Shown here piece after piece: positions 13,009 through 29,428 of a stretch of DNA of 64,000 nucleotides. The notes below the pieces were generated by a model. The model ran no database searches and was not told the DNA's origin. It was given only the letters and a program-made list of their open reading frames with translations. Made by a program: the position numbers and the translations under genes. The number at the start of each line of letters is the position of its first letter. Position 1 is the first letter of the stretch. The stretch comes from Cellulomonas timonensis. GTDB lineage: Bacteria; Actinomycetota; Actinomycetes; Actinomycetales; Cellulomonadaceae. Where the stretch lies: positions 1 to 64,000 of the forward strand of contig NZ_FCOT01000012.1 in NCBI RefSeq assembly GCF_900046455.1, written 5' to 3'.

Positions 13009-13839
13009 TCAGGCGTCGGCCGCGTCCACGCGCTGGGCCAGGTCGCCCAGTCCCGCCGCGACTGCGGCGGGGTCCTCGACGGCGGTCATATGCCCGCTGC
13101 GCACCACCACCACGAGTTGCGCGGCGGGCAGCGCCGCCGCCATCGGCTCGGCCACCGAGGCGGGCGTGACCTGGTCCTCGTCGCCGACCAGCACCATCGC
13201 GGGCCCCTCGAAGGCGCGCAGCAGGTGGCTGCGGTCCGGCCGCGCCGCCATGGCGCGCTGGGACCAGGCGACGCCGGTCGGCTGCTGGTCCTCGATCCAC
13301 GCGGTCAGGGTCGCGGCGAGCGTCGGGCGGGCGGCACGGGTGGACTCGCCGAGCAGGGCTGTCCCCATCGGCAGCACCTCGGCGACCGAGCCCGTCTCCT
13401 CCACGGCGTCGGCGATCCGGAGCCGGTTCACCCGCGCGTCGTCGTCGTCGGCCGTGGCCTTGGTGTCGAGCAGCCCGAGCCCGGCCACCAGGGCGGGGTG
13501 GCGCTCCAGCAGCGCGAGGGCGACATAGCCGCCCATCGACAGGCCTGCCACGACAGCACGGTCGATGCCCCGCTCGGCGAGGGCCAGCGCGACCGCGTCG
13601 GCGGCGGCCTCGAGCGCGGGCGGGGTGGGCAGGTCGACATCGGCCGAGCCGCCGAGGCCGGGGAGGTCGACGCCCAGCACAGTCCGGTCGCCGGGGAGCT
13701 GGGCCACAGTGGACTCCCACATGCGCGAGTCCACCGGGAAGCCGTGCAGCAGCACCAGCGGCGTGGAGCCGGCCGTGCCGCCGCGCAGCTCGCGGACCGC
13801 GAGCGCGGGGATGGGCGCGTCGCCTGGGGTGGCGGTCAT
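13009..13839 (-). CDS. Alpha/beta-fold hydrolase
   Basis: 276 aa. Oxyanion-hole motif LLHGFPVDSRMW (30-41), nucleophile elbow GLSMGGY with Ser101, and the C-terminal histidine in SGHMTAVEDP (about 252) make a complete catalytic triad scaffold. It is of the small soluble esterase / carbon-carbon hydrolase type without a signal peptide. The substrate cannot be read from the sequence. It is separated by about 90 bp from the HAD gene upstream on the same strand. Confidence 0.85.
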   Translation of the reverse strand: MTATPGDAPIPALAVRELRGGTAGSTPLVLLHGFPVDSRMWESTVAQLPGDRTVLGVDLPGLGGSADVDLPTPPALEAAADAVALALAERGIDRAVVAGLSMGGYVALALLERHPALVAGLGLLDTKATADDDDARVNRLRIADAVEETGSVAEVLPMGTALLGESTRAARPTLAATLTAWIEDQQPTGVAWSQRAMAARPDRSHLLRAFEGPAMVLVGDEDQVTPASVAEPMAAALPAAQLVVVVRSGHMTAVEDPAAVAAGLGDLAQRVDAADA

Positions 13840-13932
13840 ACGGTCTCCTCGGTGTCGGACGCCGGGCCGGCCGCGGCGTCGGGCTCGGCGCCGATGACGG
13901 GGCCGGACCAGGTGTGGGCAGCGTCGACGAGC

Positions 13933-14772
13933 CTATCCGCGCCGGGCGAGGCCTTCGAGTGCGGCCTCGAGCTGCCGGGCGACCCCGTCGTCATCGTTCG
14001 AGGCGCAGGTCCGCGACGCCGCGGCGCGCACTGCCGGGTAGGCATTCGCCACCGCGAAGGACTCCCCCGCCCACGCGAGCATCGGCAGGTCGTTGGGCGC
14101 GTCGCCGAACGCCCACACGTCCGCCGCCTCGATGCCGTGGCCGGCGGCCCAGTGCGCGAGGGTCGAGGCCTTCGTGACCCCGGGGCCGGTGATCTCCGCG
14201 AGGCCCTGGGCGCCCGAGTCGGCGACGATCGCGCGCTCGGCCAGTGCCGCGTGGACGTGCTCGAGCAGCTCGACGGGCCCGAGCGCCGTGGAGCGCAGGA
14301 GCAGCTTGAGCGTCGAGCCGGCGAGGGCGTGGGTCACGTCGACGGTGTGCGCGGCGTCCCACGGCGGGGCGGCGTTGGCGCCGAAGCCCGGCTCGGCGGC
14401 GAGGCCGTGGATGCTCTCGACGGCGAACGACGCCCCCGCGACGGCCCGCCGCAGGTCGTCGACGAGCTCGGCGACCAGCTCGGGGCCCATGCCGCGGTCC
14501 ACCAGCACGCTGCGCTCGTGCACGTCGTAGACGGCCGAGCCGTTGGCGCAGATCGCGGCCCCGTGCCCGCCCACGGCGGCGCGCAGCTCGTCCACCCAGC
14601 GCGGCGGACGCGCGGTGACGAAGACGACGCCGATCCCGGCGTCCTCGACGGCGCGCAACGCGTCGCGGGTACGGGCCGAGAGGGCGCCGTCCGACCGCAG
14701 CAAAGTGCCGTCGAGGTCGGTGGCGATGAGGCGGGGGACGCGGGGGTGCACCTGGCCGACCCTAGCCGCCAC
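13933..14772 (-). CDS. HAD-superfamily (Cof-type) phosphatase
   Basis: 279 aa. Motif I DLDGTLL near residue 19 supplies the nucleophile Asp; motif II lies in VVFVTARPP and motif IV in WAFGDAPNDLPML, all as in the Cof/YbiV subclass with a C2 cap. Such enzymes dephosphorylate small phosphorylated metabolites in the cytoplasm; the natural substrate is unknown. The GTG start at 14772 has no clear RBS; a GTG at 14751 (VHPRVPRL) is an alternative. Confidence 0.85.
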   Translation of the reverse strand: MAARVGQVHPRVPRLIATDLDGTLLRSDGALSARTRDALRAVEDAGIGVVFVTARPPRWVDELRAAVGGHGAAICANGSAVYDVHERSVLVDRGMGPELVAELVDDLRRAVAGASFAVESIHGLAAEPGFGANAAPPWDAAHTVDVTHALAGSTLKLLLRSTALGPVELLEHVHAALAERAIVADSGAQGLAEITGPGVTKASTLAHWAAGHGIEAADVWAFGDAPNDLPMLAWAGESFAVANAYPAVRAAASRTCASNDDDGVARQLEAALEGLARRG

Positions 14773-15207: not shown

Positions 15208-16662
15208 TCAGCCCAGGCGGGGCGCCGACTCCACGGTCGGGATCTTGCCGGTGCGGACGAGCTCGCCGTACCAGTACGAGGAGTCCTTGCGGGTCCGCTC
15301 GAGAGTGTCGTAGTCCACGCGCACGATGCCGAACCGGCGGTCGTACCCGTAGGCCCACTCGAAGTTGTCGAGCAGCGACCACACGAAGTAGCCGCGCACG
15401 TCGACGCCCTTGTCCATGGCCGCGCCGACGGCGTCGATGTGGTCGTGCAGGTAGCTGACGCGGCGCTCGTCGTGCACGCGGCCGTCTGCGGAGAGCTCGT
15501 CGTCGAACGCGGCGCCGTTCTCGGTGATGGCCAGCGGCAGGCCCGGGTAGGCGTCGTGCAGGTCGAGCAGCAGCTCGGTGAGGCCGTCGGGGTCGATGTT
15601 CCAGCCCATCGAGGTGTGCGGGCCGGGCATGGCCATCCACTCGATGTCGTCGGTGGCGGGCCACGGGCTCAGCGGCGAGGACTTGTGGCCATCCGGGCCG
15701 GGGCTGCCGTCGCCCGGCACGCGGGGGGCGTCGGACTTGCGGACCATTCCGGTCGAGTAGTAGTTGACGCCGAGCACGTCGACCCCGCTGTTGATGATCT
15801 CCAGGTCGCCGTCCTGCACGAAGGACCAGTCGGTGACCGACGCGGTGTCCTGGAGCACATCGGCCGGGTAGGCGCCGTCGAGCAGCGGGCCGAGGAACAC
15901 GCCGTTGGCCAGGCCGTCGATGCGCCGCTTGGCGTCGACGTCCTCGGGGGCGGTGCTGGCGGCGCGGGTGACGTGCAGGTTGAGAGTGATGGAGATCTGC
16001 GCGTCGGCGCCGACGATCTCGCGGACCGCGCGCCCGCCCAGGCCGTGGGCCAGGTTGAGGTGGTGCACGGCGGCGAGGGAGTCGGCGTGGTTCTCCCGGC
16101 CCGGCGCGTGCACGCCCGAGGCGTAGCCCAAGTAGGCGGAGCACCACGGCTCGTTGAGGGTGGTCCAGATCTTCACGCGGTCGCCCAGCGCCCCGGCGAC
16201 CACTGCCGCGTAGTCGGCGAACCGGTAGGCCGTGTCGCGGGCGGGCCAGCCGCCGGCGTCCTCGAGGGCCTGCGGCAGGTCCCAGTGGTACAGCGTGACG
16301 ACGGGGTCGATGCCGGCCTCGACGAGCTGGTCGACGAGCCGCGAGTAGAAGTCGAGGCCCTTCTGGTTCACGGCGCCGGAGCCGGTGGGCTGGATGCGCG
16401 GCCAGGCGACGGAGAACCGGTAGGCGTCGAGCCCGTGCGCCTTCATCAGCGCGACGTCCTCGGCGGTGCGGTGGTAGTGGCCCACGGCCACGTCGCCGGT
16501 GTCGCCGTTGAGCACCTTGCCGGGCGTCTGGGAGAACGTGTCCCAGATCGACGGGCCGCGGCCGTCTTCGGTGGTCGCCCCCTCGATCTGGTAGGAGGCG
16601 GTGGCGGAGCCCCAGAGGAAGTCGGCGGGGAACTGCCGACCGGACGGGCGCGAGGTGGTCAT
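15208..16662 (-). CDS. bglB: GH1 beta-glucosidase
   Basis: 484 aa, full length for GH1. The fold start [15 protein letters not shown], the acid/base Glu171 in TLNEPW and the nucleophile Glu381 in ITENG are all present. No signal peptide, so it acts in the cytoplasm on cellobiose-type or other beta-linked oligosaccharides brought in by a transporter. It lies 162 bp downstream of the GH31 gene on the same strand, and that gap holds three operator-like sites. With GH31 and GH42 it fits hydrolysis of the glucan backbone of imported oligosaccharides; exact specificity is inferred. Confidence 0.95.
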
Positions 16663-16732
16663 CGTCGATCCTTCGTGGAGGGGCGTCCGGCGCCGTCGCT
16701 GGCGCCTCTCAACCGGCAGGCCAGGCTACCGA

Positions 16733-16746
16733 TCGAATCGTTACGA
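16733..16746 (-). promoter_or_regulatory. LacI-type operator candidate upstream of GH1
   Basis: TCGAATCGTTACGA matches the locus consensus TCGAARCGGTTCGA at 11 of 14 positions. It lies 71 bp upstream of the GH1 start in the gap after GH31. It is the weakest of the five copies in this locus. Confidence 0.5.
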
Positions 16747-16754
16747 TACAACAG

Positions 16755-16791
16755 TGGGAGCGTGACCGCGAGGTCTGCGGGAGCGTTTCCA
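16755..16791 (-). promoter_or_regulatory. Two CebR/CelR-like operator candidates upstream of GH1
   Basis: TGGGAGCGTGACCG (16755-16768) and CGGGAGCGTTTCCA (16778-16791) match the known actinobacterial cellobiose-regulator palindrome TGGGAGCGCTCCCA at 10 and 11 of 14 positions. In Streptomyces CebR controls a cellobiose importer and a GH1 enzyme, so this promoter may also answer to cellobiose. No cebR gene is in the window. Confidence 0.45.
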
Positions 16792-16824
16792 TCGCTCCGC
16801 GCAGACCCCGTCGGCGCCCTGGCC

Positions 16825-19104
16825 TCACAGGCGCAGCTCGACCACCCCGACTCCAGCGGGCGCCTCGCCGCGCGGGCCGCCCACGACCTGCACGGACCAT
16901 GGCAGGCCTGCGCCCGTGGCCTCGACGCGCACCAGGCCGCCGAGGCGCGTCACGGTGAACGTGGCGCCGCCCGTGCCGCCGAGCCCCGGCACCCAGGTGG
17001 TCGAGCGGTGGCCGTCCTCCACCTCGAACAGGTGCAGCGTCACACCGTCGGCATAGTCGTAGTCCGGCCGGTCGGAGCGCGCGCCGACCGGCAGCACCGT
17101 CCCGGGCCGCACCAGCAGGGGGAGCGAGTCGAAGCCGTGCCGCTGGCGCACCCAGCGCGGGCCCGTGACCTGATCGCCCGTCAGCAGGTCGGTCCAGACG
17201 CCCTCCGGCACGTACAGCTCCACGTCGCCCTCGGCGTTGAACACGGGGGCGACCAGCAGCGCGTCGCCCAGCATGTACTGCGTGTCGATGGCCGCCGTGC
17301 CGCGGTCCTCGGGGAACTCGAGCGCCATCGGGCGCATCACCGGCACGCCCTCCTCATGCGCCTGCGCGCCGATGCGCGCCAGATACGGCATGAGGGAGAG
17401 CTTGAGCCGGGTGAACCGGCGGGTAACGTCCACCGCCTCCTCGTCGAACGCCCACGGCACCCGGTAGGAGTCCGAGCCGTGCAGCCGGCTGTGCGAGGAC
17501 AGCAGCCCGAACGCGAGCCAGCGCTTGAACACCGCCGGGTCCGGGGTGCCCTCGAAGCCGCCGATGTCGTGGCTCCAGAACCCGAAGCCCGACATCGCCA
17601 GCGACAAGCCCCCGCGCAGCGACTCCGCCATCGACACGAAGGTCGACTCGCAGTCCCCGCCCCAGTGCACCGGGAACTGCTGCCCGCCCGCGGTGGCCGA
17701 GCGCGCGAACAACACCGCCTCCCCCGCGCCCTTCTCCTCCTCGAGCAGCTCGAAGACCGCCTTGTTGTAGAGGTGCGTGTAGTAGTTGTGCATCCCGGCC
17801 GGGTCGGAGCCGTCATGCCAGACGACGTCGGTGGGGATGCGCTCGCCGAAGTCCGTCTTGAACGCGTCGACGCCCATGTCCAGCAGCGCCCGCAGCTTGC
17901 CCTGGTACCAGGCCGTGGCCTCGGGGTTCGTGAAGTCGACGAGCGCCATGCCCGCCTGCCACAGGTTCCACTGCCACACCGAGCCGTCCGGGTTCGTCAC
18001 CAGGTACCCGCGCTCGCGCCCCTCCGCGAACAGCGCCGAGCGCTGCGCGATGTACGGGTTGATCCACACGCAGATCTTCAGGCCCTTGGCCTTGAGCCGC
18101 GCGAGCATGCCCGCCGGGTCGGGGAACGTGGCCGGGTCCCACACGAAGTCGCACCAGTGGAACTGGCGCATCCAGAAGCAGTCGAAGTGGAAGACCGACA
18201 ACGGCAGGTCCCGCTCGGCCATGCCGTCGATGAAGCTGGTGACAGTCGCCTCGTCGTAGCTCGTGGTGAAGGACGTGGAGAGCCACAGCCCGTACGACCA
18301 CTCGGGCACCCGCGCCGGGCGGCCCGTGAGCGCCGTGAGTTTGCGCAGGATGTCCTTGGGCGTGGGCCCGTAGATCACGTAGTACCGCAGCGACTGGCCC
18401 TCGACGCTGAACTGCGCGCGCGAGACGACCTCGGTGCCCACCTCGAACGAGACGCGCTCGGGCTGGTCGACGAAGACCCCATAGCCGGCGTCGGTCAGGT
18501 AGAAGGGCACGTTCTTGTAGGCCTGGTCGGAGGCGGTGCCGCCGTCGGCGTTCCAGATGTCGACGGTCTGGCCGTTCTTGACCAGCGCGCCGAACCGCTC
18601 GCCCAGCCCGTAGACATGCTCGCCGACGCCGAGCGTGAGCTGCTCGCGGACGAAGTGGCGGCCCTCTGCGTCAGTGATCACTCCGACGCTGCGCGGCGTC
18701 GACGTGGTCAGCGTGCGCCCGTCGGCCTGGAAGTCGACGGTCCACTCCCCCTCGGTCGCGACCCGCGCCGTCAGCCCCCCCGAGCGGAACGTCGCCACCG
18801 GCTCGCCGGTCAGCTCCGGCCCGGCGACCTTGACGTCGGCCACCGCGCTCGCGAGCTCGAACCTGGGGCCGCGCTCGACGCCGCCCTGGAAGTGCTCGAT
18901 GGTCACCCCCACCACGTCGTCCATCGGCGTGTGGAAGGACACGGTGATGAGCGGGCGGTTGAGCGTGTCGCCTCGCGTGGCGAGCGGGCCCGTCGCCGCG
19001 TACAGCGTCAACGTGTCGGCGCCGGCGACCACGTCGTCGACCGCCTGCGGCCGCAGGATGCTCACGCCCGGCAGGACCTGCCAATAGCCATCGGTGAACT
19101 TCAT
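16825..19104 (-). CDS. yicI: GH31 alpha-xylosidase (YicI type)
   Basis: 759 aa, close to E. coli YicI (772). Start chosen at ATG 19104, which overlaps the GH42 stop by 4 bp (ATGA); the frame stays open further upstream inside GH42 but without sense. Nucleophile Asp418 is in FKTDFGERIPTDV and the acid/base Asp484 in HWGGDCEST, both matching the YicI signature. FWSHDIGGFEG follows. YicI-type enzymes remove alpha-1,6-xylose from the non-reducing end of xyloglucan oligosaccharides. No signal peptide: cytoplasmic. It is translationally coupled to GH42. Confidence 0.93.
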   Translation of the reverse strand: MKFTDGYWQVLPGVSILRPQAVDDVVAGADTLTLYAATGPLATRGDTLNRPLITVSFHTPMDDVVGVTIEHFQGGVERGPRFELASAVADVKVAGPELTGEPVATFRSGGLTARVATEGEWTVDFQADGRTLTTSTPRSVGVITDAEGRHFVREQLTLGVGEHVYGLGERFGALVKNGQTVDIWNADGGTASDQAYKNVPFYLTDAGYGVFVDQPERVSFEVGTEVVSRAQFSVEGQSLRYYVIYGPTPKDILRKLTALTGRPARVPEWSYGLWLSTSFTTSYDEATVTSFIDGMAERDLPLSVFHFDCFWMRQFHWCDFVWDPATFPDPAGMLARLKAKGLKICVWINPYIAQRSALFAEGRERGYLVTNPDGSVWQWNLWQAGMALVDFTNPEATAWYQGKLRALLDMGVDAFKTDFGERIPTDVVWHDGSDPAGMHNYYTHLYNKAVFELLEEEKGAGEAVLFARSATAGGQQFPVHWGGDCESTFVSMAESLRGGLSLAMSGFGFWSHDIGGFEGTPDPAVFKRWLAFGLLSSHSRLHGSDSYRVPWAFDEEAVDVTRRFTRLKLSLMPYLARIGAQAHEEGVPVMRPMALEFPEDRGTAAIDTQYMLGDALLVAPVFNAEGDVELYVPEGVWTDLLTGDQVTGPRWVRQRHGFDSLPLLVRPGTVLPVGARSDRPDYDYADGVTLHLFEVEDGHRSTTWVPGLGGTGGATFTVTRLGGLVRVEATGAGLPWSVQVVGGPRGEAPAGVGVVELRL

Positions 19105-21158
19105 GAGGTCCTCTCGATCAAGGCGACGACGCCCTCGGGTGGGAGATGCGCCGTGCCAGCGTGGTGGGCGCCGGTCAGCAGGTCGTGGAACGAGCCCGGG
19201 AGCACGACCTTGCGCTCCTCGGAGCCCGCGTTGAACAGGAACAGCACGGGGCCGCGGCGCACGGCCTCGACACCGTCGGGCGGGTGGTCCAGCACGCCGC
19301 GCACCCCGGCCGCCTCGGCGCACTGCCGCACGACCTCGTCGAGCACCTGCTGCGGCGGCGTGGCGGCCACGTACCAGGCCTCGCCGCCCGACGAGTGGGG
19401 GTGGCGGACAATCGCGGGGCAGCCCTCGAGGTCGGCGCCCATGAACTCGGCCACCGCCTCGCCGCCCTCCAGGCGCAGGCGCTCGGCCCACATGTGCGCG
19501 GTGAAGTCCCAGATGGCGTCCGATGCCACCGGGGCGCCAGAGTCCGGCAGCGGGCACTGCTCCTCGCCGGACGCGCCGACCAAGTCGGCGAACGGCACGG
19601 GGAACCGCCCCTGGCGGACGTGCCCGTCGCGGTCCGCGACAGCGGAGAACGGCCCGAGCAGCAGCACGCCGCCGCGCTCGACGACGCCCCGCAGGTTCTG
19701 CGCATCTGGGTCCTCGAGGAGGTAGAGCTGCGGGACGACGACCAGGTCGTAGCCGGACAGGTCGGAGCCAGGATGCACGACGTCGACGGCGACGCCCGCC
19801 TGCCACAGCGGCCGGTAGTAGGCCCGCACCTGGTCCATCACGCGCAGCCGGTCGGAGGGCTGGGCGGGCTCCTCGGCGGCCCACCAGCTCGACCAGTCGA
19901 ACGCGATCGCCACGCGCGCCTCCACGCGCTCCCCCACCACCGACGCCAGCAGGCGGAGCTCCGCGCCGTGCGCGCGCACCGCCCGGTGCAGGCGCGTGTC
20001 GGGCCCGGCATGGGGCAGCAGCGCCGAGTGGAACCGCTCGGCGCCGAAGGCCGAGGCCCGCCACTGGAAGAAGCAGGAGCCGTCGGCGCCGCGGGCGATG
20101 GCGCGCAGCGAGTCCAGGCGCATCCGCGCGGGGGACTTGGGCACGTTGTGGGCGCGCCAGTTCACGGCGCCGGCGGCCTGCTCCATGACCATCCACGGGC
20201 CCCCGCCCGCCAGCGAGCGCATCAGGTCGTGGGTCAGCGCCAGCATCGCCGGCGATTGCGCGTCCGCCGGGTCGCCGTAGACGTCGTCGGCGACGACGTC
20301 GACGTGGGGCGCCCAGCGCCAGTAGTCGGTGGCGCGGTGGAAGCCCATGAGATTGGTGGTGACGGGGACTCCGGGCGCGAGCTGCCGCACCAGGTCGCGC
20401 TGCTCCAGGTAGAGCGCCAGGAGCTGGTCGGAGACGAACCGCTGGTGGTCAAGCACCTGCGAGGGGTTGAGCAGGTAGGGGGCGGCGCGCGGCGGGACGA
20501 TCTCGCCCCAGTCGTCGTAGCGCTGGCTCCAGAACGACGTGCCCCACGCCCGGTTGAGCTCGGCGATGGTCCCGTGGCGGCGACGCAGCCAGGCCTGCAG
20601 CTCGGCCCCGCACAGGTCGCAGTGGCACACCTGGCCGTACTCGTTGCCGATGTGCCACATGCGCACGGCCGGGTGGGCGCCGTAGCGCTCGACGAGCGCC
20701 CGGGCGATGGCGAGCGACCGCTCGCGGTAGACCGGGGACGACGGGCAGAAGTGGTTGCGCGAGCCATGGCTGAGCCGCACCCCGTCCCTCGTCACCGCGC
20801 GGGCCTCGGGCCACCGGAGCCCGAGCCACGGGGGCGGCGAGGCGGTGGGCGTGGCCAGGTCGACGGCGATGCCGGCCGCGTGCAGCAGCCCCAGCACCTC
20901 ATCGAGCCAGTCGAAGTCGTAGTCGCCGGGCCGCGGCTCGAGGCGGGCCCAGCTGAAGACGCCGAGCGTCACGAGGTTGACCCCGGCCTCGCGCATGAGC
21001 GCCACATCCTCGCGCCACACCTCGCGCGGCCACTGCTCGGGGTTGTAGTCGCCGCCGTACAGGATCCCGAGGTCGCGGGTCAGGGCGTCGAGGCCCGGCC
21101 GGGCTCCCGCTGGCCCTGGCGCCGCTGCGCCCATCCGGCCCTGCGTGGTGATGTCCAC
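19101..21158 (-). CDS. GH42 beta-galactosidase
   Basis: 685 aa from GTG 21158. An upstream in-frame start at 21266 would place the operator at 21202 inside the gene, and an ATG at 21134 is an alternative. N-terminal GILYGGDYNPEQWP is typical of GH42. Acid/base Glu173 is in HIGNEYG and nucleophile Glu326 in MVMEQAAG. Cys138, Cys178, Cys180 and Cys183 form the structural zinc cluster known in this family. It removes terminal beta-galactose, such as that capping xyloglucan side chains. No signal peptide. First gene of the GH42-GH31 operon, divergent from the LacI gene. Confidence 0.92.
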   Translation of the reverse strand: MDITTQGRMGAAAPGPAGARPGLDALTRDLGILYGGDYNPEQWPREVWREDVALMREAGVNLVTLGVFSWARLEPRPGDYDFDWLDEVLGLLHAAGIAVDLATPTASPPPWLGLRWPEARAVTRDGVRLSHGSRNHFCPSSPVYRERSLAIARALVERYGAHPAVRMWHIGNEYGQVCHCDLCGAELQAWLRRRHGTIAELNRAWGTSFWSQRYDDWGEIVPPRAAPYLLNPSQVLDHQRFVSDQLLALYLEQRDLVRQLAPGVPVTTNLMGFHRATDYWRWAPHVDVVADDVYGDPADAQSPAMLALTHDLMRSLAGGGPWMVMEQAAGAVNWRAHNVPKSPARMRLDSLRAIARGADGSCFFQWRASAFGAERFHSALLPHAGPDTRLHRAVRAHGAELRLLASVVGERVEARVAIAFDWSSWWAAEEPAQPSDRLRVMDQVRAYYRPLWQAGVAVDVVHPGSDLSGYDLVVVPQLYLLEDPDAQNLRGVVERGGVLLLGPFSAVADRDGHVRQGRFPVPFADLVGASGEEQCPLPDSGAPVASDAIWDFTAHMWAERLRLEGGEAVAEFMGADLEGCPAIVRHPHSSGGEAWYVAATPPQQVLDEVVRQCAEAAGVRGVLDHPPDGVEAVRRGPVLFLFNAGSEERKVVLPGSFHDLLTGAHHAGTAHLPPEGVVALIERTS

Positions 21159-21201
21159 GTTGCCCCCGTCGTCACCAGTGTCCGTCGCGTTCGGCGAATC
21201 A

Positions 21202-21215
21202 TCGAAGCGGTTCAA
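21202..21215. promoter_or_regulatory. LacI-type operator upstream of GH42
   Basis: TCGAAGCGGTTCAA matches the locus consensus at 13 of 14 positions. It lies 44 bp upstream of the chosen GH42 start in the GH42/LacI divergent region. Confidence 0.7.
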
Positions 21216-21291
21216 CACGCTAACCCCCGAAAGTGAGCGCGTCCAGCAGGTATCCCCCGCATCCATGGACTGAACGGGTGGTAATTCATCG

Positions 21292-21305
21292 TCGAAGCGC
21301 TTGCT
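21292..21305. promoter_or_regulatory. LacI-type operator near the regulator promoter
   Basis: TCGAAGCGCTTGCT holds a perfect 8-bp centre AAGCGCTT and shares the left half-site with the other copies; the right half is degenerate. It is 90 bp after the first operator and about 140 bp before the regulator start, a spacing that could allow looping or autoregulation. Confidence 0.55.
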
Positions 21306-21445
21306 TCACTCGTCCGGGCCGAGGCACCACCGTCGACTCCCCGCGCCCCGCTAAAGTGTCCGCAGCCGGGACGCAGCGACCCCGGCCGACCACTCGCCGT
21401 CAGGGCGAGACTCGTCGTCAGGGCGAGATCAGAAGGGGGCGCCCC

Positions 21446-22471
21446 ATGGCGACCATCGACGACGTGGCACGAGCGGCAGGAGTCTCCACGTCGACCGTGT
21501 CCTACGTGCTCTCCGGCAAGCGGCCCATCTCCGCGCCCACCCGCCAGCGGGTCGAGCGCAGCATTCGCGACCTCGGCTACCGGCCCCACGCCGGCGCCCG
21601 GGCGCTCGCGTCGAGCCGCACCCAGGTGCTCGCCCTGATGGCGCCGCTGCGCGCGGACGTCAACGTGAACGTGATCATGCAGTTCGTCACCGGGGTGGTC
21701 ACCAGCGCGCGGGCCTTCGAGCACGACGTGCTGCTGCTGACCCAGGACGACACGACAGGCCTCGAGCGGGTGGCCGACGGCTCGATGGTGGACGCGCTGA
21801 TCATGATGGACGTCGAGGCCGACGACCCCCGCGTGCCCGTGCTGGTGGGGCTGCGCCAGCCCACCGTCCTCATCGGCCTGCCCCAGGACCCCGCAGGGCT
21901 CTCCTGCGTCGACCTGGACTTCGAGGCCGCAGGTCGCGTCGCGGTGCGCCACCTCGCCGAGCTCGGACACCGCCACGTCGCCCTGATCGGCTCCCCGCGC
22001 GCCGTGCTCGAGCGGCACACCTCCTACGCCGACCGGATGCTGCGCGGCTTCACCCTCGAGGCCGCCGCGCTCGGGCTGACCAGCACCGTCCAGTCGTGCG
22101 AGTCCTCGCACAACGGCGCCGTCGAGGCCGTCGACGCCGTGCTGGCGAGGATGCCCGCCGTGACCGGCGTCGTCGTGCACAACGAGGTGGCGCTGCCAGC
22201 CGTGGTCGCCACCCTCCGCGAGCGTGGGCGCAGCGTGCCCGACGACGTCTCCGTCGTCGCCATCTGCCCCCAGGACGTCGCCATCGGGCAGCCGACGCCG
22301 CTGACCTCCGTCGACATCCCCGCCCACACGATCGGCCGCGTGGCCGTGGAGATGGCGATGGCCCGCGTCGAGGGCGAGCAGCCCGCGGAGACCCGGCTGC
22401 TCGCGCCCGTGCTCACGGCCCGCGCCACCAGCGCGCCCGCCCCGGCAGGTCAGGGCCAACTCAGCCCTTGA
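21446..22471 (+). CDS. LacI-family transcriptional regulator of the glycan locus
   Basis: 341 aa from ATG 21446, preceded by AAGGGGG; open sequence upstream of this start is not conserved-looking. The N-terminal helix-turn-helix ATIDDVARAAGVSTSTVSYVLSG and the hinge region around YRPHAGARAL are typical of LacI/GalR. The rest is a periplasmic-binding-protein-like sensor domain that would bind a sugar or sugar phosphate. Its gene sits between the hydrolase operon and the importer, and five copies of one palindrome surround it, so it is the likely repressor of all of them. Its 3' end overlaps the 3' end of the convergent permease gene by 11 bp. Confidence 0.92.
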   Translation: MATIDDVARAAGVSTSTVSYVLSGKRPISAPTRQRVERSIRDLGYRPHAGARALASSRTQVLALMAPLRADVNVNVIMQFVTGVVTSARAFEHDVLLLTQDDTTGLERVADGSMVDALIMMDVEADDPRVPVLVGLRQPTVLIGLPQDPAGLSCVDLDFEAAGRVAVRHLAELGHRHVALIGSPRAVLERHTSYADRMLRGFTLEAAALGLTSTVQSCESSHNGAVEAVDAVLARMPAVTGVVVHNEVALPAVVATLRERGRSVPDDVSVVAICPQDVAIGQPTPLTSVDIPAHTIGRVAVEMAMARVEGEQPAETRLLAPVLTARATSAPAPAGQGQLSP

Positions 22472-23456
22472 TGGCGCCGAAGATGACGCCCTTGGTGAAG
22501 TGCCGCTGCACGAACGGGTAGACCAGCAGGATTGGCACCACGGCCAGCACCATCACAGCCATCTGCACTGGCAGCCCAGTGACGACGCCCGTCGCCACGT
22601 CCACAGTGCCGGTGCCGCCGCCCGGCAGCGAGACGCCCTGCAGCACGTATGAGCGCAGCACCATCTGGATGGGCCACTTCTCGTTGTCGTTGATGTAGAG
22701 CATCGCGTTGAAGAACGCGTTCCAGTAGCCGACCCCGTAGAACAACGCGACGACGGCGATCGCGGCCTTCGACATGGGCAGGACGATCGCGCGCAGGATG
22801 CGCCAGTCCCCCGCGCCGTCGATGCGCGCCGCGTCGAGGATCGCCGGCTCCACGCCCATGAAGAAGTTGCGCAGGATCAGCACGTTGAACGCGGACACCG
22901 CCCCCGGCAGGATCAGCGCCCAGTACGAGTTGATCAGGCCGAGGCCGCTCACCAGCAGATACGTCGGGATGAGCCCGGCGCCGAAGAACATGGTGATGAG
23001 GAAGACGAACAGGATGGGCCGGTGCATGAACGAGCCCGGCCGGGACAGCCCATACGCCGCGAGCACTGACACCACCGTGGACAGCACCGTGCCGACGGCC
23101 GTGATGCCGACGCTGACCAGCGCGGCCCGCGTCACCACCCCGCCGGACAGGATCTGCGTGTACGCGTTGAGGGTCATCTCGCCCGGGATGGTGACGAGCC
23201 CGCCGGCGCGGATCGTCTCCGCCTGCGTCGACACGCTGGTGAGCACCACCGTGTAGAGCGGGAACACCACGGTCAGCACCACGACGGCCAGGATCACGAA
23301 CTTCGAGACGGCGCCGGCCTTCGAGGGCGGCTCCTCCCAGGCCGGCCGGTGCGTGGGGCGCCTCGGCCGTGGCCGGGCCGGGCGCTCTGACCCGAAGGGC
23401 ACGACGGGGGGCGTGGGCGCCGCTCCCGGCGTGAGCTGTGAGACCTGTCCGCTCAT
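22461..23456 (-). CDS. Carbohydrate ABC transporter permease (YtcP/MalG-like)
   Basis: 331 aa from ATG 23456, which overlaps the upstream permease stop by 4 bp (ATGA). Six membrane spans starting near residue 52 follow a Pro/Arg-rich cytoplasmic N-terminus. The cytoplasmic loop ILDAARIDGAGDWRILRAIVLP is the EAA motif that docks the ATPase. It is the third gene of the binding protein-permease-permease operon. No ATPase gene is present here; CUT1 importers of Actinobacteria usually share a multitask ATPase such as MsiK encoded elsewhere. Confidence 0.92.
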   Translation of the reverse strand: MSGQVSQLTPGAAPTPPVVPFGSERPARPRPRRPTHRPAWEEPPSKAGAVSKFVILAVVVLTVVFPLYTVVLTSVSTQAETIRAGGLVTIPGEMTLNAYTQILSGGVVTRAALVSVGITAVGTVLSTVVSVLAAYGLSRPGSFMHRPILFVFLITMFFGAGLIPTYLLVSGLGLINSYWALILPGAVSAFNVLILRNFFMGVEPAILDAARIDGAGDWRILRAIVLPMSKAAIAVVALFYGVGYWNAFFNAMLYINDNEKWPIQMVLRSYVLQGVSLPGGGTGTVDVATGVVTGLPVQMAVMVLAVVPILLVYPFVQRHFTKGVIFGAIKG

Positions 23457-24460
23457 GCGCGTTTGTACACTCCCGACTCGCCGAAGACGTGCGCCAGCTT
23501 GTTCGCCCCCAGGACGAGCGCGAGGCTGACGACCCCCTTGACCAGGCCCGCCGCCGCGGCGAAGCTCCAGTCGCCGTACACCACGCCCTGGTAGTAGACG
23601 AAGGTGTCGATGACATCCGAGACGCCCACCCCCACGGCGGCGCGCTGCAGGATGAGCTGCTCGAACCCGACGGTGAGCGAGTCGCCCAGGCGCAGGATGA
23701 GCAGCAGGATGACCACGGGCCGCAGCGCGGGCAGCGTGATGTGCCACATCCGCCGCCACCGATTCGCGCCGTCCACCGCCGCCGCCTCGTACAGCTCCGG
23801 CGAGACGGTGCTCAGGGCCGCGAGGAAGATGATGATGCCCCAGCCCGCGTCCTTCCAGACCGACTGCATGGTGATGAGCACCAGGAACGTGTCCGGGTTC
23901 GTCATCAGGTCGAAGCCCTCGTACCCGTGCTGTCGCAGGTTCTGGCTCAGCAGCCCGGCGCCGCCGAACATCTGCTGGAAGAGGGTCACCACCAGCACCC
24001 ACGAGAAGAAGTGCGGCAGATAGACGATCGACTGGATCGTCGTGCGGATGCGCGGGGACAGCACGCTGTTGAGCAGCAGCGCCAGGAAGATCGGCACCGG
24101 GAAGAAGAACACGAGCTGGAAGGCCGTGATGGCCAGGGTGTTGCCGACCGCGTTGAGGAACAGCGGGTTGCTGAACACCCGCTCGAAGTTCTCCCAGCCG
24201 ATCCACGGGCTCCCGAAGAAGCCCTGGTAGGGCGAGTAGGACGACCACGCCATGATGTTGCCGAACATCGGCACGTAGGCGAACACCGCCAGCAGCACGA
24301 CGGCGGGCAGCACCATGATCAGCAGCGAGCGGTCGCGGGCGATCTGCGCACGCCTGCTGAGGCGGCGGGGCTGCCCCGACGGCGCGGTGGCAGCCGCGCC
24401 GTCGGGACGTTCGGCGTCCGACGCCTTGGGGCGCCGGCGATGCAGCAGCGGGACCGTCAC
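23453..24460 (-). CDS. Carbohydrate ABC transporter permease (LplB/UgpA-like)
   Basis: 335 aa. The start is GTG at 24460, whose bases overlap the stop of the binding-protein gene (GTGA), with AAGGAG just upstream. About 50 cytoplasmic residues are followed by six spans and the EAA motif YEAAAVDGANRWRRMWHITLP. The LplB type is found in importers for larger oligosaccharides. It pairs with the YtcP-like permease downstream. Confidence 0.92.
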   Translation of the reverse strand: MTVPLLHRRRPKASDAERPDGAAATAPSGQPRRLSRRAQIARDRSLLIMVLPAVVLLAVFAYVPMFGNIMAWSSYSPYQGFFGSPWIGWENFERVFSNPLFLNAVGNTLAITAFQLVFFFPVPIFLALLLNSVLSPRIRTTIQSIVYLPHFFSWVLVVTLFQQMFGGAGLLSQNLRQHGYEGFDLMTNPDTFLVLITMQSVWKDAGWGIIIFLAALSTVSPELYEAAAVDGANRWRRMWHITLPALRPVVILLLILRLGDSLTVGFEQLILQRAAVGVGVSDVIDTFVYYQGVVYGDWSFAAAAGLVKGVVSLALVLGANKLAHVFGESGVYKRA

Positions 24461-26130
24461 TCCTTGTCCAGGATGTCCTGGTAGAAGGCGCGGAGCTCGT
24501 CACCGCCCGAGGACTTCCAGGTCTGCACGGCGTCCTCGAGGTCGTCCAGGGACTTGCGGCCGCGCGAGATGTCCTTCTCGAGATCCTGGAACGGCTGCCC
24601 GATCGACGCGTACTGCTGCGGCTCGGCGATCTGCCGGCCGAAGAACAGTGGGTCGGTGAGGTACTGGGCGGCGTCGGCCTGCCAGGCGGAGGCCGCCTCG
24701 ACGTAGCCGGGGTACTGCACCTTGGCGTTCGCGATGGGACCGCCGACCAGGAACATGTACGTCGGCTGCACCTCGGTGGCCGCCAGGTCTGTGGGCACGG
24801 GCAGGCCGTCGGCGTCCTTGGTGTAGTGCACGCCCTCGACGCCGTAGTTGACCAGGTCGAACTCGGTGGTGCCGAAGGGTCCCGCGAGCACGTTCGCCAG
24901 CGCGAGGAGCTCCTTGATGCGGTCCTCGTCGTCGGACTTCTTGAGGAACGAGTAGATGTTGGCGGGGTTGCCCTTGAACAGCACGGGCGTGCCGCCGTCG
25001 CCGGCGAACGGCGCGAAGGGCTGCTGCCAGAACGCGGGGTTGGCGCCGAGGTTGTCGCGCAGTGCCTCGTTCCAGCTCCCCAAGCCGTCGGCCATGATCA
25101 GCGACTTGCCGGACTGGAACCGCTGCTTCGCGTCGCCGTCCTGTCCGGCGACCGCGTCGGGGTGCACGGCGCCGGAGGCGAAGAGCTTCGCGTTCCAGGC
25201 GAGGGCCGCGCGGTACTCCTCGGTCTCGATCCGGTGCACGAGCTTGTCGCCGTCGAGACGCCACTTGGGCGGCACCGCGTGGATGATCGCGGCGGTGGTC
25301 CACAGGTCCTCGGCGCCCCAGCGGCCCGAGCCCGTGTCGGTGAGCTCGAGGGCGAGGGCGATGAGGTCCTCGCCGTTCTTGACGTCCGGGGAGATACCGA
25401 GCTGCTCGAGCACGTCCTGCCGGTAGAAGGTCGCGTCCGTGAGCACCTCGCCGGGCATCGGCAGTCCGTACAGGCGGCCGTTGAACACGCAGAACTTCCA
25501 CACGTCGGAGGGGATGTTCGCGAGGTTCGGGTAGTCCTTGACCTTGTCGCCCGCGAGGAACGGCGTGAGGTCCTGGAAGACGTTGCCGACGATCTCGGAG
25601 GCGAAGCGGGGTGGGAGGTTCCAGTTCGGCACGCACACCCAGTCGGGCACGTCCTTGGACGAGGCGAGCACGGTGGCGAGCTTGTCGCCGTAGGTGTTGC
25701 CGTCGGCGATCTGGAATTGGACCGTGGAGCCGAGCGCCTCGTTGACCGCCTCGTAGTACTTGTTGCCCTTGGTGGGTGGGATCGTCCCCCACAGCGGGGT
25801 CATCGCGACGAAGGTCGCGCCGCTCCCGGGCGGTGCTGACACCGACTGCACCAGCGCGTCGGGCAGGCTCGCGAATCCAGGGGTGGAGCCGTTGACGCTC
25901 GGGAAGTCCGGCTCGACGTACTCCTGCGGGATGTACGAGGGGATCGCGTCCTCGAGCTTGACCCCGGCCGCCTCCCCACCCTGGGGCGCGTCCGAGCTCC
26001 CGCAGCCGGTCAGCAGCGCGGGGACGCCGACGACTGCCGCGCCCGCGGCGACCATCCCGAGGAAGGACCTCCGCTCGACGGGGACGTCCGCGACCCGGCT
26101 GGCCTTGCGGAGGTGTGTGGTGGTGTTCAT
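24457..26130 (-). CDS. Oligosaccharide ABC transporter substrate-binding lipoprotein (LplA-like)
   Basis: 557 aa, the large size class of LplA-type binding proteins. The N-terminus carries a Tat-like motif (RRSFLGM, about 21-27) and a lipobox ALLTGC (Cys about 43), so it is probably exported folded and lipid-anchored outside the membrane. It captures an oligosaccharide and delivers it to the two permeases, whose genes are coupled downstream. The 382-bp region upstream is shared with the divergent GH3 gene and contains two strong operator copies. Confidence 0.92.
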   Translation of the reverse strand: MNTTTHLRKASRVADVPVERRSFLGMVAAGAAVVGVPALLTGCGSSDAPQGGEAAGVKLEDAIPSYIPQEYVEPDFPSVNGSTPGFASLPDALVQSVSAPPGSGATFVAMTPLWGTIPPTKGNKYYEAVNEALGSTVQFQIADGNTYGDKLATVLASSKDVPDWVCVPNWNLPPRFASEIVGNVFQDLTPFLAGDKVKDYPNLANIPSDVWKFCVFNGRLYGLPMPGEVLTDATFYRQDVLEQLGISPDVKNGEDLIALALELTDTGSGRWGAEDLWTTAAIIHAVPPKWRLDGDKLVHRIETEEYRAALAWNAKLFASGAVHPDAVAGQDGDAKQRFQSGKSLIMADGLGSWNEALRDNLGANPAFWQQPFAPFAGDGGTPVLFKGNPANIYSFLKKSDDEDRIKELLALANVLAGPFGTTEFDLVNYGVEGVHYTKDADGLPVPTDLAATEVQPTYMFLVGGPIANAKVQYPGYVEAASAWQADAAQYLTDPLFFGRQIAEPQQYASIGQPFQDLEKDISRGRKSLDDLEDAVQTWKSSGGDELRAFYQDILDKE

Positions 26131-26271
26131 CAGCGCCCTTCACTCCCTTGTGGAAACGCACGACTGCGAGGAGACCGCCGTGCGCGGGGGCACGCCGGCG
26201 TGGTGCTCCGGAGCCGATCAGCAGTGATCAGACGACCGGGTGGCTCGGATGAACGCTTCGACGAATCAACA

Positions 26272-26285
26272 TCGAAGCGGTTCGA
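26272..26285. promoter_or_regulatory. LacI-type operator before the importer operon
   Basis: TCGAAGCGGTTCGA, the best copy of the palindrome, 142 bp upstream of the binding-protein start. A further half-site CGCTTCGA lies at 26254-26261. Between 26131 and 26512 no coding sequence is supported. Confidence 0.75.
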
Positions 26286-26435
26286 CGGGCCGACTCTAGG
26301 GCAGCCGTTTCGGTCCCGCAACACCCCGGTCGCGCCGTGACCAAGTTGTCATCTTCCTGGCAGTTGCTCCCTTTCAGCGGTCCGAAAGAGCCGACTTCGC
26401 GTACGGTGTGCGGAGGCCGCCAGCAGAACTCATCG

Positions 26436-26449
26436 TCGAAACGGTTCGA
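26436..26449. promoter_or_regulatory. LacI-type operator before GH3
   Basis: TCGAAACGGTTCGA, matching the consensus at every position, 64 bp upstream of the chosen GH3 start. It supports starting GH3 at 26513 rather than at the earlier ATG at 26408. Confidence 0.72.
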
Positions 26450-26512
26450 CCACAGGGTCGCCACTGGCGCCGAGAACATCCGACCATCAGCGCACCGAAG
26501 CCGAGGACCAGC

Positions 26513-29428
26513 GTGGCCGACGACGACGTCCAGCCCGACCAGCACGACCTGGCGGCCGACTCCCCCACCGACCCCGCGGCCATCGGTGCCGCACGCGCCG
26601 CACGCGCCCGCGCGCTGCTCGCCGAGCTCGCCCTCGACGAGAAGATCGCCCTGCTGCACCAGCACGCCCCCGCCGTCGAGCGGCTCGGGCTGCGCGCCTT
26701 CCACACGGGCGCCGAGGCGCTGCACGGCGTGGCGTGGCTCGGGACCGCCACCGTGTTCCCCCAGCCCGTGGGCCTCGCGGCGACCTGGTCCACCGAGCTG
26801 CTCACCCGGGTGGGCGAGGTCGTGGGCGTCGAGCTCCGCGCCAAGCACGCCGCCGACCCGGCCGTCAGCCTCAACGCCTGGGCGCCCGTGGTGAACCCCC
26901 TGCGTCATCCGCTCTGGGGGCGCAACGAGGAGGGCTACTCCGAGGACCCGCACCTCACCGCCGAGCTCGCCACCGCCTACGCGCGCGGGCTGCGCGGCGA
27001 CCACCCGGTGTTCTGGCGCACGGTCCCCACCCTCAAGCACTTCCTCGCCTACAACAACGAGACCGATCGCGCGCTGACCAGCTCGCGCCTGCGGCCCCGC
27101 GTGCTGCGCGAGTACGAGCTCCCCGCCTACCGCGGCCCCATCGAGGCGGGTGTCGTCGGCGCCGTCATGCCCTCGTACAACCTCGTCAACGGAAGGCCCA
27201 ACCACGTCGCCCGCGAGCTGCTCGACGAGTTGCGAAGCTGGTCGCCCGCCTCGCTGCTCGTCGTCTCCGACGCCGCCGCGCCCGGCAACCTTGTCACCTT
27301 CGAGCGGTTCTACCCCGACCACGTCACCGGCCACGCCGCGATGCTGCGCGCCGGTGTCGACTCGTTCACCGACAACGACGCCGACGCGGGGCCCACCACC
27401 ACCCGGATCGCCGCCGCGCTCGAGCGCGGCCTGATCACCGAGGCGGACATCGACCAGGCCGCGCTGCGCCACCTCGAGCTGCGCCTCGCCACCGGCGAGC
27501 TGGACCCTGAGCTCGACCCCTACGCCGGGATCGGCCCCGACCAGATCGACCTGCCCGAGCACCGCGCACTCGCCCGCGAGGCCGTCGCCCGGTCCGTGGT
27601 GCTCCTCGCCAACGACGGCGTGCTCCCCCTGGCCACCGGCCAGCGGATCGCCGTGGTCGGGCCGCATGCCGACCGGGTGCTGCACGACTGGTATTCGGGG
27701 CCGCCCCCGTATCTGGCGGGCATCGCCAGCGCGCTCGCCGCGCGGTTCCCCGGCGCGGTGCGGACAGCCGACGGCGCCGATCGCATCGCGCTGCGCTCCA
27801 CCAGCACCGGCGGATACCTGCGCCCGGGCGTCGATGGCGCCCCCCTCGCCGACGGGCCCGCCGCCGGCCCCGAGGCCCAGACCGACGTCACCGCCGGGGG
27901 CGAGGGCATCGTGACGCTGCGCGCGGTGGCCACTGGCCTGCTGTGGTCGGGCGGCGGCTGGGTGATCCGCGCCGCCGCCGGGCGGGTGGGCGGCTGGGTC
28001 GCGCAGGAGAGCTTCCGCCTGCACCGCCACGACGACGGCGCCTGGTCGCTGCGGCACCTGGGCAGCGGGCGATGGCTCCGCGTGCAGCACGGCCAGGGGC
28101 TGCTCGCCGCCGACGCCGCCGAGCTCGCCGACGCCGAGCGGTTCACGCTGCGCACCGTGCGCCACGGGCACGCGCACGTCGCCGAGGTGTCCGCCGCCGC
28201 GGACGTCGTGCTGGTCGCCGTCGGCAACGACCCCCACCTGCTGGGCCGTGAGACCGAGGACAGGCCCCACCTCCGGCTCCCCCACGAGCAGGCCGAGCTG
28301 TGGCGCGCCGCGCGCGAGGCCAACCCGCGGGCCGTGCTCACCGTCGTGTCGTCCTACCCGTACGTGCTCGGCGATATCGCCGACCACGCCGCCGCAGTGG
28401 TGTGGACCTCGCACGGGGGCCAGGAGCTCGGGAACGGGCTGGCCGACGTGCTCGCCGGCGACGTCGAGCCCAGCGGCCGGCTTGCGCAGGGCTGGCCCGC
28501 CGACGAGTCGCATGTGGGCGACTTGCTCGACTACGACGTCATCGAGGCCAAGTCGACCTACTGGTACGCCGAGCACCCAGCCCTGTACGCCTTCGGCCAC
28601 GGGCTGTCCTACACCGACGTGGAGTACACGGCCCTCACCCTGGACACCACGGACGTGGACCCCGACGGGCAGGTCCACGCGCACGTCACCGTCGCCAACC
28701 GCGGCGCCCGCGCGGTCGACGAGCTCGTCCAGGTGTACGCCGCGTCACCCGGCCACCGGCTGCCCGTCCCCCGCCGACGGCTCGTCGCGCACACCCGGGC
28801 GACGCTCGCCCCCGGCGAGATCCGCACCGTCGAGCTCATCGTGCGGATGGAGCAGCTCGCCATCTGGGATGTGAGCCGCGACCAGCACGTGGTGGAGCCC
28901 GGCCGACACGAGCTGCACGCCGGACCGTCCAGCGCCGAGCAGCCGCTGCGCGCTGAACTGCGCGTCAGCGGCGAGCCCGTGCCGCCCCGCGCCGCCCTCG
29001 GCGCCGTGCTCCGGCTGGCCGACTACGACGAGCAGGACGCGACGACCCTCGCCGAGCGCACCCGGGAGGCCGGTGACGCGGTGCAGCCCGCCCCTGGCCG
29101 CCGTAGCGGCTGGGTGCTGTTGCGGTCCGTGGACGCGCAAGGGGCACAGGGCATGCGGGTGACGCTGGCGCGCACCGGGCCGGGCCCAGCACACGCCCGG
29201 GTCGAGGTGCGCGAGAGCACCGACTCCCCTCGGCTGGCGTCGGAGGACGACACGGCCTGGCAGCTCGCCGGCACGGCCGAGGCGCCCACCAAGGGCGGCC
29301 GCTACGACTGGTCGGCTGAGCCCGTGGCCGCCGGGCTCGGCTGGGAGACGCTGGCCGGCAAAGTGGTCGACGTGCGCGTCGTGCTCACCGGGCCGGTCCG
29401 CGCGGGTGAGCTGTCCGTGACGCCCTGA
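26513..29428 (+). CDS. GH3 glycosidase with inserted beta-trefoil-like domain
   Basis: 971 aa from GTG 26513 (GAGGA just upstream). Residues about 25-330 are the GH3 TIM-barrel, with nucleophile Asp253 in LVVSDAAAP. The second domain begins near 370 (RIAVVGPHAD). It is interrupted at about 420-560 by a segment of YL-containing repeats (LRSTSTGGYLRPG, LRHLGSGRWLRVQ) resembling a fascin/actin-crosslinking beta-trefoil, where other GH3 enzymes carry PA14. It resumes at VVLVAVGNDP, then a fibronectin-III-like domain (about 700-780) and a C-terminal beta domain. No signal peptide: cytoplasmic. Divergent from the importer, under a LacI-type operator. Its last 127 bp overlap nagA antisense. Confidence 0.88.
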   Translation: MADDDVQPDQHDLAADSPTDPAAIGAARAARARALLAELALDEKIALLHQHAPAVERLGLRAFHTGAEALHGVAWLGTATVFPQPVGLAATWSTELLTRVGEVVGVELRAKHAADPAVSLNAWAPVVNPLRHPLWGRNEEGYSEDPHLTAELATAYARGLRGDHPVFWRTVPTLKHFLAYNNETDRALTSSRLRPRVLREYELPAYRGPIEAGVVGAVMPSYNLVNGRPNHVARELLDELRSWSPASLLVVSDAAAPGNLVTFERFYPDHVTGHAAMLRAGVDSFTDNDADAGPTTTRIAAALERGLITEADIDQAALRHLELRLATGELDPELDPYAGIGPDQIDLPEHRALAREAVARSVVLLANDGVLPLATGQRIAVVGPHADRVLHDWYSGPPPYLAGIASALAARFPGAVRTADGADRIALRSTSTGGYLRPGVDGAPLADGPAAGPEAQTDVTAGGEGIVTLRAVATGLLWSGGGWVIRAAAGRVGGWVAQESFRLHRHDDGAWSLRHLGSGRWLRVQHGQGLLAADAAELADAERFTLRTVRHGHAHVAEVSAAADVVLVAVGNDPHLLGRETEDRPHLRLPHEQAELWRAAREANPRAVLTVVSSYPYVLGDIADHAAAVVWTSHGGQELGNGLADVLAGDVEPSGRLAQGWPADESHVGDLLDYDVIEAKSTYWYAEHPALYAFGHGLSYTDVEYTALTLDTTDVDPDGQVHAHVTVANRGARAVDELVQVYAASPGHRLPVPRRRLVAHTRATLAPGEIRTVELIVRMEQLAIWDVSRDQHVVEPGRHELHAGPSSAEQPLRAELRVSGEPVPPRAALGAVLRLADYDEQDATTLAERTREAGDAVQPAPGRRSGWVLLRSVDAQGAQGMRVTLARTGPGPAHARVEVRESTDSPRLASEDDTAWQLAGTAEAPTKGGRYDWSAEPVAAGLGWETLAGKVVDVRVVLTGPVRAGELSVTP

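Follow-up and report, generated by a model that had tools for sequence, protein, structure and literature searches.

Xyloglucan is a major polymer of the plant cell wall, and cellulomonads are classic degraders of plant matter. The xyloglucan loci of Cellvibrio japonicus and the Bacteroidetes co-locate an alpha-xylosidase with side-chain enzymes; these bacteria are Gram-negative, and their uptake systems and enzyme families differ from those considered here. In Ruminiclostridium cellulolyticum, Gal42A removes galactose, Xyl31A terminal xylose and Glu3A exposed glucose, with glucose, xylose, galactose and cellobiose as end products (PMC4780118), and XygS/XygR of this clostridial system are cited in PMC8579813. 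Cellulomonas fimi and C. gilvus encode one GH74-CBM2 protein each, and their optical density rose in xyloglucan medium (PMC3544764). The parts of the cellulomonad literature examined hold no account of the import of xyloglucan fragments or of its control. Here we analyze a 64,000-nucleotide stretch of Cellulomonas timonensis DNA (the window, part of contig 12 of a 4.06 Mb genome in 13 contigs, with a G+C content of 71%) and its locus at positions 15208-29428, which is very probably the import and cytoplasmic-digestion arm of a xyloglucan regulon controlled by a LacI-family regulator. We favor this reading because of the identity of the GH31 enzyme, an operator shared with distant genes, the conservation of that site ahead of GH74 and GH5-CBM46 genes, their co-occurrence with the regulator, a cluster in a relative that joins GH74 to the importer, the model of the binding protein and the assayed precedents.

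A Pfam scan of the locus identified a GH1, a YicI-type GH31, a GH42, a LacI regulator, two permeases, a large solute-binding protein (SBP) and a GH3, all eight scoring above the Pfam cut-offs. An earlier note, made from the letters alone, had named the three hydrolases, the regulator, the LplA/LplB/YtcP-type importer and the GH3 enzyme, and the Pfam and NCBIfam scores bear these assignments out. The GH31 protein matches the NCBIfam model for alpha-xylosidase (PRK10658) with 1259.9 bits (cut-off 606) and aligns with the Escherichia coli YicI structures with 977 bits. Ten YicI positions that we take to be catalytic or pocket residues (F277, C307, F308, W315, W345, W380, K414, D416, R466 and D482) were inspected within the aligned stretches examined, and all ten are identical in the GH31 protein. 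The catalytic Asp416 and Asp482 of YicI align with its Asp418 and Asp484, numbered from the ATG at 19104, the same two residues that the earlier note had picked out. We predict that the protein is a YicI-type alpha-xylosidase; its closest named relatives are Cellulomonas proteins with 82% and 80% identity, in a search from which the records of this genome were possibly excluded.

The other hydrolases are consistent with the removal of side chains and backbone glucose. The nearest solved structure to GH42 is the beta-galactosidase LacZ 9ta3 (579.9 bits). GH1 scores 602.5 bits with the NCBIfam BGL model (cut-off 478.5) and is nearest to the solved beta-glucosidase 1gnx (641 bits), which we take to be a Streptomyces enzyme. 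Placing GH1, GH31 and GH42 in the cytoplasm, as the earlier note did, agrees with the lack of a signal peptide by eye, and GH3 likewise shows none. The C domain of GH3 contains an insert, and the C-terminal tail of the protein has diverged; among the 20 proteins of its alignment, a CBM6 can be detected in 13 and a ricin-type trefoil in 4, and the window protein has neither. The CBM6 of these relatives is reminiscent of the Oerskovia IPase, a likeness noted without a sequence comparison with that enzyme. GH3 matches the isoprimeverose-producing enzymes 5yot and 21ji with 151.6 bits and a beta-xylosidase entry with a higher 230.9 bits, and such similarity does not favor an isoprimeverose-producing role.

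The genes lie in divergent groups, GH42-GH31-GH1 and SBP-LplB-YtcP on the minus strand and LacI and GH3 on the plus strand, so the locus comprises more than one operon. The start of GH31 overlaps the stop of GH42 by four bases, and SBP and LplB overlap likewise; four-base overlaps are frequent among coupled genes. The listed ends are those of maximal open reading frames (ORFs), and because predicted operators fall within the longer frames of GH42 and GH3, we place the starts of these two genes farther in (Table 1).

The locus is connected to a distant gene by a shared operator. The genome contains four exact matches to the palindrome TCGAA(A/G)CG(C/G)TTC(G/A)A, three of them in the locus. The fourth is at 860813 of contig 13, and the ATG of a GH74 gene follows 68 nt downstream of it. 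This gene is the single Sortilin-Vps10/GH74 match of the genome (L106:6096-8837), and its 914-residue product aligns with the solved xyloglucanase 6p2o over residues 40-763 (1078 bits), carries a CBM2 module and has an N terminus that looks signal-like by eye; it is likely a secreted endo-xyloglucanase. The earlier note had seen no such enzyme in the window, and none was found in the subset of window ORFs scanned. With a looser consensus, TCGAANCGNTTCRA, six places match without mismatch in this genome, and the reversed control has zero matches in all seven genomes of the genus. The two additional places have the form TCGAATCG(A/T)TTCGA and were excluded from the regulon as probably belonging to another regulator.

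The pairing of site and GH74 is conserved across the family. We surveyed 121 family genomes for GH74 (E<=1e-100), obtaining 28 matches in 27 genomes, and scored a site when at least 13 of the 14 positions fit a somewhat looser consensus within 700 bases upstream of the match. A site precedes 27 of the 28 loci, including the GH74 gene of this genome (L121), the case that prompted the test. The sole miss (L149) comes second in a tandem pair of GH74 genes on contig 3 of genome G022, downstream of the site-bearing first gene (L135). One further locus (L125) was excluded from the 28 as a partial match (E 3.5e-45), and no site lies upstream of its match; the bodies of the 29 matches contain two sites. 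The mean majority-base fraction across the 27 sites is 0.94 in the core, which was itself used for selection, and 0.52 in the 20-base flanks. A TAnnnT-like hexamer often follows the site before GH74, as judged by eye, which would suit a repressor that blocks the promoter. Together, the operator common to the locus and the distant GH74-CBM2 gene, and its persistence in relatives, support the xyloglucan reading that the earlier note had proposed from gene content.

A second type of secreted enzyme carries the same site. In G001 and G006, two genomes of the genus, it stands ahead of a GH5-CBM_X2-CBM46 protein, whose nearest solved relatives include 4v2x; enzymes of the GH5-CBM46 type hydrolyze xyloglucan and other beta-glucans (PMC4817029). 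The site precedes 13 of 22 such loci (17 genomes), including the nine best-scoring, and 11 of 20 when these two discovery cases are left out. The genome under study has two other GH5 matches, neither of this type (no match at E<=1e-60). As a control, 30 of 62 GH9 matches were scanned over 1.5 kb upstream, and the site was found at none of the 30, though some promoters may lie farther out. Outside these 30, the genome's own second GH9 gene near C12:769609 has the site TCGAAACGCTTCAC (contig 12, 771586; L019:1501), which fits at 13 of 14 positions and lies some 171 nt ahead of the likely start of the gene; it is a possible further member, uncertain enough that we left it out of the regulon.

The regulator and the secreted enzymes also occur in the same genomes. 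With cut-offs of E<=1e-90 for LacI and E<=1e-100 for SBP, LacI is found in 26/27 genomes with GH74 and 32/94 without it (Fisher p 2.8e-9), and in 17/17 genomes with GH5-CBM46 and 41/104 others (p 8.9e-7). SBP is present in 19/27 GH74 genomes and 11/94 others, and all 30 SBP genomes have LacI. The link between GH74 and LacI holds when the genomes are split by GH9 (18/19 versus 7/20 where GH9 is present, 8/8 versus 25/74 where it is not). GH31 is found in 25/27 GH74 genomes and 63/94 others (p 0.007), a weaker association, since many genomes of the family have GH31. GH9 too goes with LacI (25/39 versus 33/82, p 0.019) and with SBP (17/39 versus 13/82, p 0.0015), so some of the co-occurrence comes from a common way of life on plant matter.

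The gene set of the locus is conserved in Cellulomonas and its relatives, as judged from 80 named GH31 loci. The search of relatives that the earlier note had suggested found all eight genes together in 4 of the 80 (Cellulomonas L026, L028 and L029, and Cellulosimicrobium L032) and SBP with both permeases in 11, of which 10 also have LacI. Within the stretches examined, LacI is missing from L064 (Kribbella), GH42 from L036, GH3 from L079 and GH1 from L068, L080 and L085; a GH42-like match of L085 is located apart, and in L027 the contig ends before GH3 is reached. Across the 11 SBP-bearing loci, the YtcP-type permease is 61-86% and the LplB-type 67-84% identical to that of the window. All 11 have one or more sites in the interval from GH3 to SBP or immediately ahead of SBP (in L068 only as the variant TCGAATCGATTCGA), and a site lies on the GH42/GH31/LacI side in 9/11; in L036 it precedes a second importer. 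In the relative G088, GH74 lies inside the same cluster, about 7 kb from SBP, and operators precede both genes.

The importer would suit large substrates. Its two permeases score 30.5 and 61 bits with Pfam BPD_transp_1 (cut-off 26.4), and a fold search places the SBP structure model closest to AlgQ1/AlgQ2, 5gub/5gx8, NgtS and FusA. Its large size and a modeled fold nearest AlgQ1/AlgQ2/FusA agree with Cluster G, and among known binders the model is nearest to those of large oligosaccharides.

We infer the following sequence of events. The probably secreted GH74-CBM2 enzyme, encoded on another contig, would cut xyloglucan into XXXG-type oligosaccharides, and the Lpl-type importer with its large SBP, powered by a shared ATPase encoded elsewhere, would take them up. 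In the cytoplasm, GH42 would strip galactose, GH31 would take alpha-xylose off the non-reducing end, and GH3, GH1 or both would take off the exposed backbone glucose; by its similarity to 1gnx, GH1 could also finish cellobiose. Until it binds a fragment of the substrate, LacI would keep GH3, GH74 and both operons, that of GH42-GH31-GH1 and that of the importer, repressed. The side-chain roles that the earlier note had given GH42 and GH31 match those of the enzymes assayed in R. cellulolyticum (PMC4780118).

Several observations weigh against this scheme. When one mismatch to the palindrome is allowed, the genome has 23 match rows and the reversed control 12, which makes imperfect sites weak evidence; the locus aside, there are 15 places with one mismatch, and a rough ORF caller puts 10 of them inside a reading frame and the other 5 outside. 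Of 27 named loci without a LacI at least 48% identical to that of the window, 19 have the palindrome, and several of these have an adjoining LacI that is 35-38% identical with a near-identical recognition helix; for this reason the window LacI is only a presumptive binder of the site. Some sites have unexpected neighbors: a perfect palindrome lies 26 nt before a TatA-like gene in G001 and G006 (L198:5035 and L202:5035, by eye), and G006 has one among flagellar-looking genes (by eye), both of which may be chance. In G001 a site (L196:5039) precedes a gene for an AA10 lytic polysaccharide monooxygenase with CBM2, and four Cellulomonas AA10 enzymes had no activity on tamarind xyloglucan (PMC7828015). 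The Fisher tests ignore shared ancestry, and SBP was not found at the cut-off in 8 of the 27 GH74 genomes. The SBP model is of modest quality (mean predicted local distance difference test score 66.4). The 26 kb examined around the G088 cluster contain no GH3 and no GH42. Finally, G003 and G004 have LacI and GH31, and GH74 was not found in them at the cut-offs used; in G004 (L204:5859-14668) the same LacI, GH31 and GH1 carry operators, and an SBP_bac_8-type system with a 461-residue binding protein takes the place of the Lpl importer.

These points bear on three other explanations. The G004 importer would fit a locus devoted to small alpha-xylosides such as isoprimeverose, or to mixed small beta-glucosides and galactosides, with the link to GH74 incidental. 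YicI presumably acts on isoprimeverose, and in many other actinobacteria, including Streptomyces and Micromonospora, GH31 stands behind a permease pair just 24-32% identical to that of the window; the clostridial GH31 is also active on isoprimeverose (PMC4780118). We nevertheless consider this quite improbable, given that the window SBP has 557 residues and a model nearest to large-oligosaccharide binders, that the site before GH74 is conserved and that the locus includes GH42. It is more improbable still, to the point that we give it very little weight, that two unrelated functions merely adjoin, a galactoside/glucoside operon with GH42 and GH1 and a separate importer with GH3. Transcription is indeed divergent, and GH31-GH1 go with another importer in some relatives, but the operator precedes the importer in every SBP-bearing named locus, recurs on the enzyme and LacI side in most of them, and LacI accompanies SBP in every SBP genome.

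A third explanation leaves the xyloglucan role of the locus intact and assigns GH74 to another regulator, for instance a different LacI or one that controls cellulases in general and has a similar palindrome. More than one LacI subfamily adjoins the palindrome, and a cellulase site predicted in C. flavigena, CNAA(T/A)CGNTTCNNNG, resembles it (PMC3377646), although the sixth palindrome position is T/A in that site and A/G here. The TCGAATCGATTCGA variant occurs also in G005, a genome in which neither this LacI nor this GH31 was detected at the cut-offs applied, the GH9 genes of the control are without the site, and the one other LacI of the present genome that was inspected, beside a GH31 paralogue, differs in its recognition helix (SIATVSFVV). 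We regard separate control of GH74 as unlikely, if less so than the two preceding alternatives, and return to a LacI-controlled xyloglucan regulon that extends from the locus to GH74. More tentatively, and with somewhat less than even confidence, we propose that this is a widespread actinobacterial regulon in which one palindrome is read by related LacI proteins. Its core would be the regulator, GH31 and the operator; importers (the Lpl type together with GH42 and GH3, or CUT1-like systems of other types) and secreted endo-enzymes (GH74, GH5-CBM46) would be interchangeable modules, and the GH3, which has an insert and a CBM6-like tail, would act inside the cell as an exo-enzyme tuned to xyloglucan oligosaccharides.

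Table 1. Genes and predicted operator sites of the locus, in window coordinates.
Feature	Position	Strand	Evidence and remarks
GH1 beta-glucosidase, 484 aa	15208..16662	-	Pfam 535.9 bits; no signal peptide by eye
GH31, predicted YicI-type alpha-xylosidase, 759 aa	16825..19104	-	Pfam GH31 TIM barrel 321.6 bits
GH42 beta-galactosidase	maximal ORF 19101..21266, start probably near 21134	-	Pfam 473.4 bits
Operator (predicted) TCGAAGCGGTTCAA	21202..21215		67 nt before likely GH42 start
Operator-like site, weaker, 3 mismatches	21292..21305		between GH42 and LacI
LacI-family regulator	21446..22471	+	Pfam LacI 60 and Peripla_BP_3 101; recognition helix STSTVSYVL
Permease, YtcP/UgpE type	22461..23414, start not fixed	-	Pfam BPD_transp_1, NCBIfam
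Permease, LplB/UgpA type	23453..24460	-	Pfam BPD_transp_1, NCBIfam
Solute-binding protein (SBP), 557 aa	24457..26130	-	SBP_bac_1 68 bits; lipobox-like N terminus by eye
Operator (predicted) TCGAAGCGGTTCGA	26272..26285		141 nt before SBP start
Operator (predicted) TCGAAACGGTTCGA	26436..26449		63 nt before likely GH3 start
GH3 enzyme	maximal ORF 26408..29428, start probably near 26513	+	Pfam GH3 N, C, Fn3-like

Other features were observed around the locus and in related genomes. Downstream of GH1, genes for an alpha/beta hydrolase and a Cof-type HAD phosphatase occupy 13009-14772 on the minus strand, an adjacency kept in L026-L029. At 54688-56121 on the plus strand, the window encodes a protein that looks secreted and has a CBM2. 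Its C-terminal part gives no Pfam match and contains a HEIGH zinc-protease-like motif, and the protein is possibly a cellulose-bound metalloprotease. On contig 11 (L205:6156-9559), the genome has a second YicI-like GH31, 62% identical, beside its own LacI, and the 15 kb stretch around it contains no operator copy. The TCGAATCGATTCGA palindrome is present in six of the seven genus genomes, precedes a GH3 in the present one (L206:4020) and is similar to the published predicted C. flavigena cellulase site. A site in G006 (L201:5074) that matches the one before the AA10 gene of G001 lies beside the same HAD-like neighbor gene. In G088, GH74 and SBP are separated by two further genes for lipoprotein-like products and by another LplB/YtcP pair, with 34-35% identity (L261:5484-11078).

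We now compare the locus with described systems. Sites of the actinobacterial CelR regulator, such as TGGGAGCGCTCCCA, follow what we take to be a consensus unlike the palindrome of the window. In the CelR cellulose regulons, too, a regulator of the LacI family has scattered operators, which stand ahead of secreted enzymes and an importer; their targets are mainly cellulose-related, and the CelR regulon of Actinosynnema mirum contains a xyloglucanase (PMC3377646). In Anaerocellum (Caldicellulosiruptor) bescii, Athe_2052-2054 comprise a 551-residue binding protein with an AlgQ/FusA-like Cluster G fold, similar to the window SBP, and two permeases, with no ATPase gene nearby and a GH31 near, as in the window (PMC12710961); the regulators predicted there are of the AraC type (PMC8579813), in contrast to the LacI of the window. 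Our PDB sequence and fold searches returned no match to the Athe binding protein, whose entry was not checked for presence in that database.

The R. cellulolyticum cluster Ccel_2451-2458 (Gal42A, Xyl31A, Glu3A and an ATP-binding cassette (ABC) importer) likewise sets GH42, GH31 and GH3 beside an ABC importer, its three enzymes are without typical signal peptides as here, and its secreted endo-enzymes, including a GH74, are also encoded elsewhere (PMC4780118). That cluster contains an AraC-type two-component system (PMC4780118), whereas the present locus has a LacI and no sensor kinase among its eight genes. Because its cluster regulator is of the LacI family, we do not count the locus as a member of the clostridial type, though it would work in the same way. 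Here, in addition, GH1 has been added, the endo-enzyme is a free GH74-CBM2 protein and not a cellulosomal one, and the operator stands also before GH74 and, in relatives, before GH5-CBM46. The literature searched, which mostly excludes subscription journals, contains no description of a LacI regulon that joins an importer to distant GH74 or GH5-CBM46 genes. Fig. 12b of PMC4780118 presents similar clusters from bacteria described as 'more distantly related'; its legend does not name them, so the gene cluster may already have been published from actinobacteria. The operator can serve as a motif for searching out the entire regulon, and it maps the regulator to its proposed targets in a form open to direct test. 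Systems of this kind are known; this one is set apart by a LacI in place of the two-component system, the added GH1, and distant GH74 and GH5-CBM46 targets.

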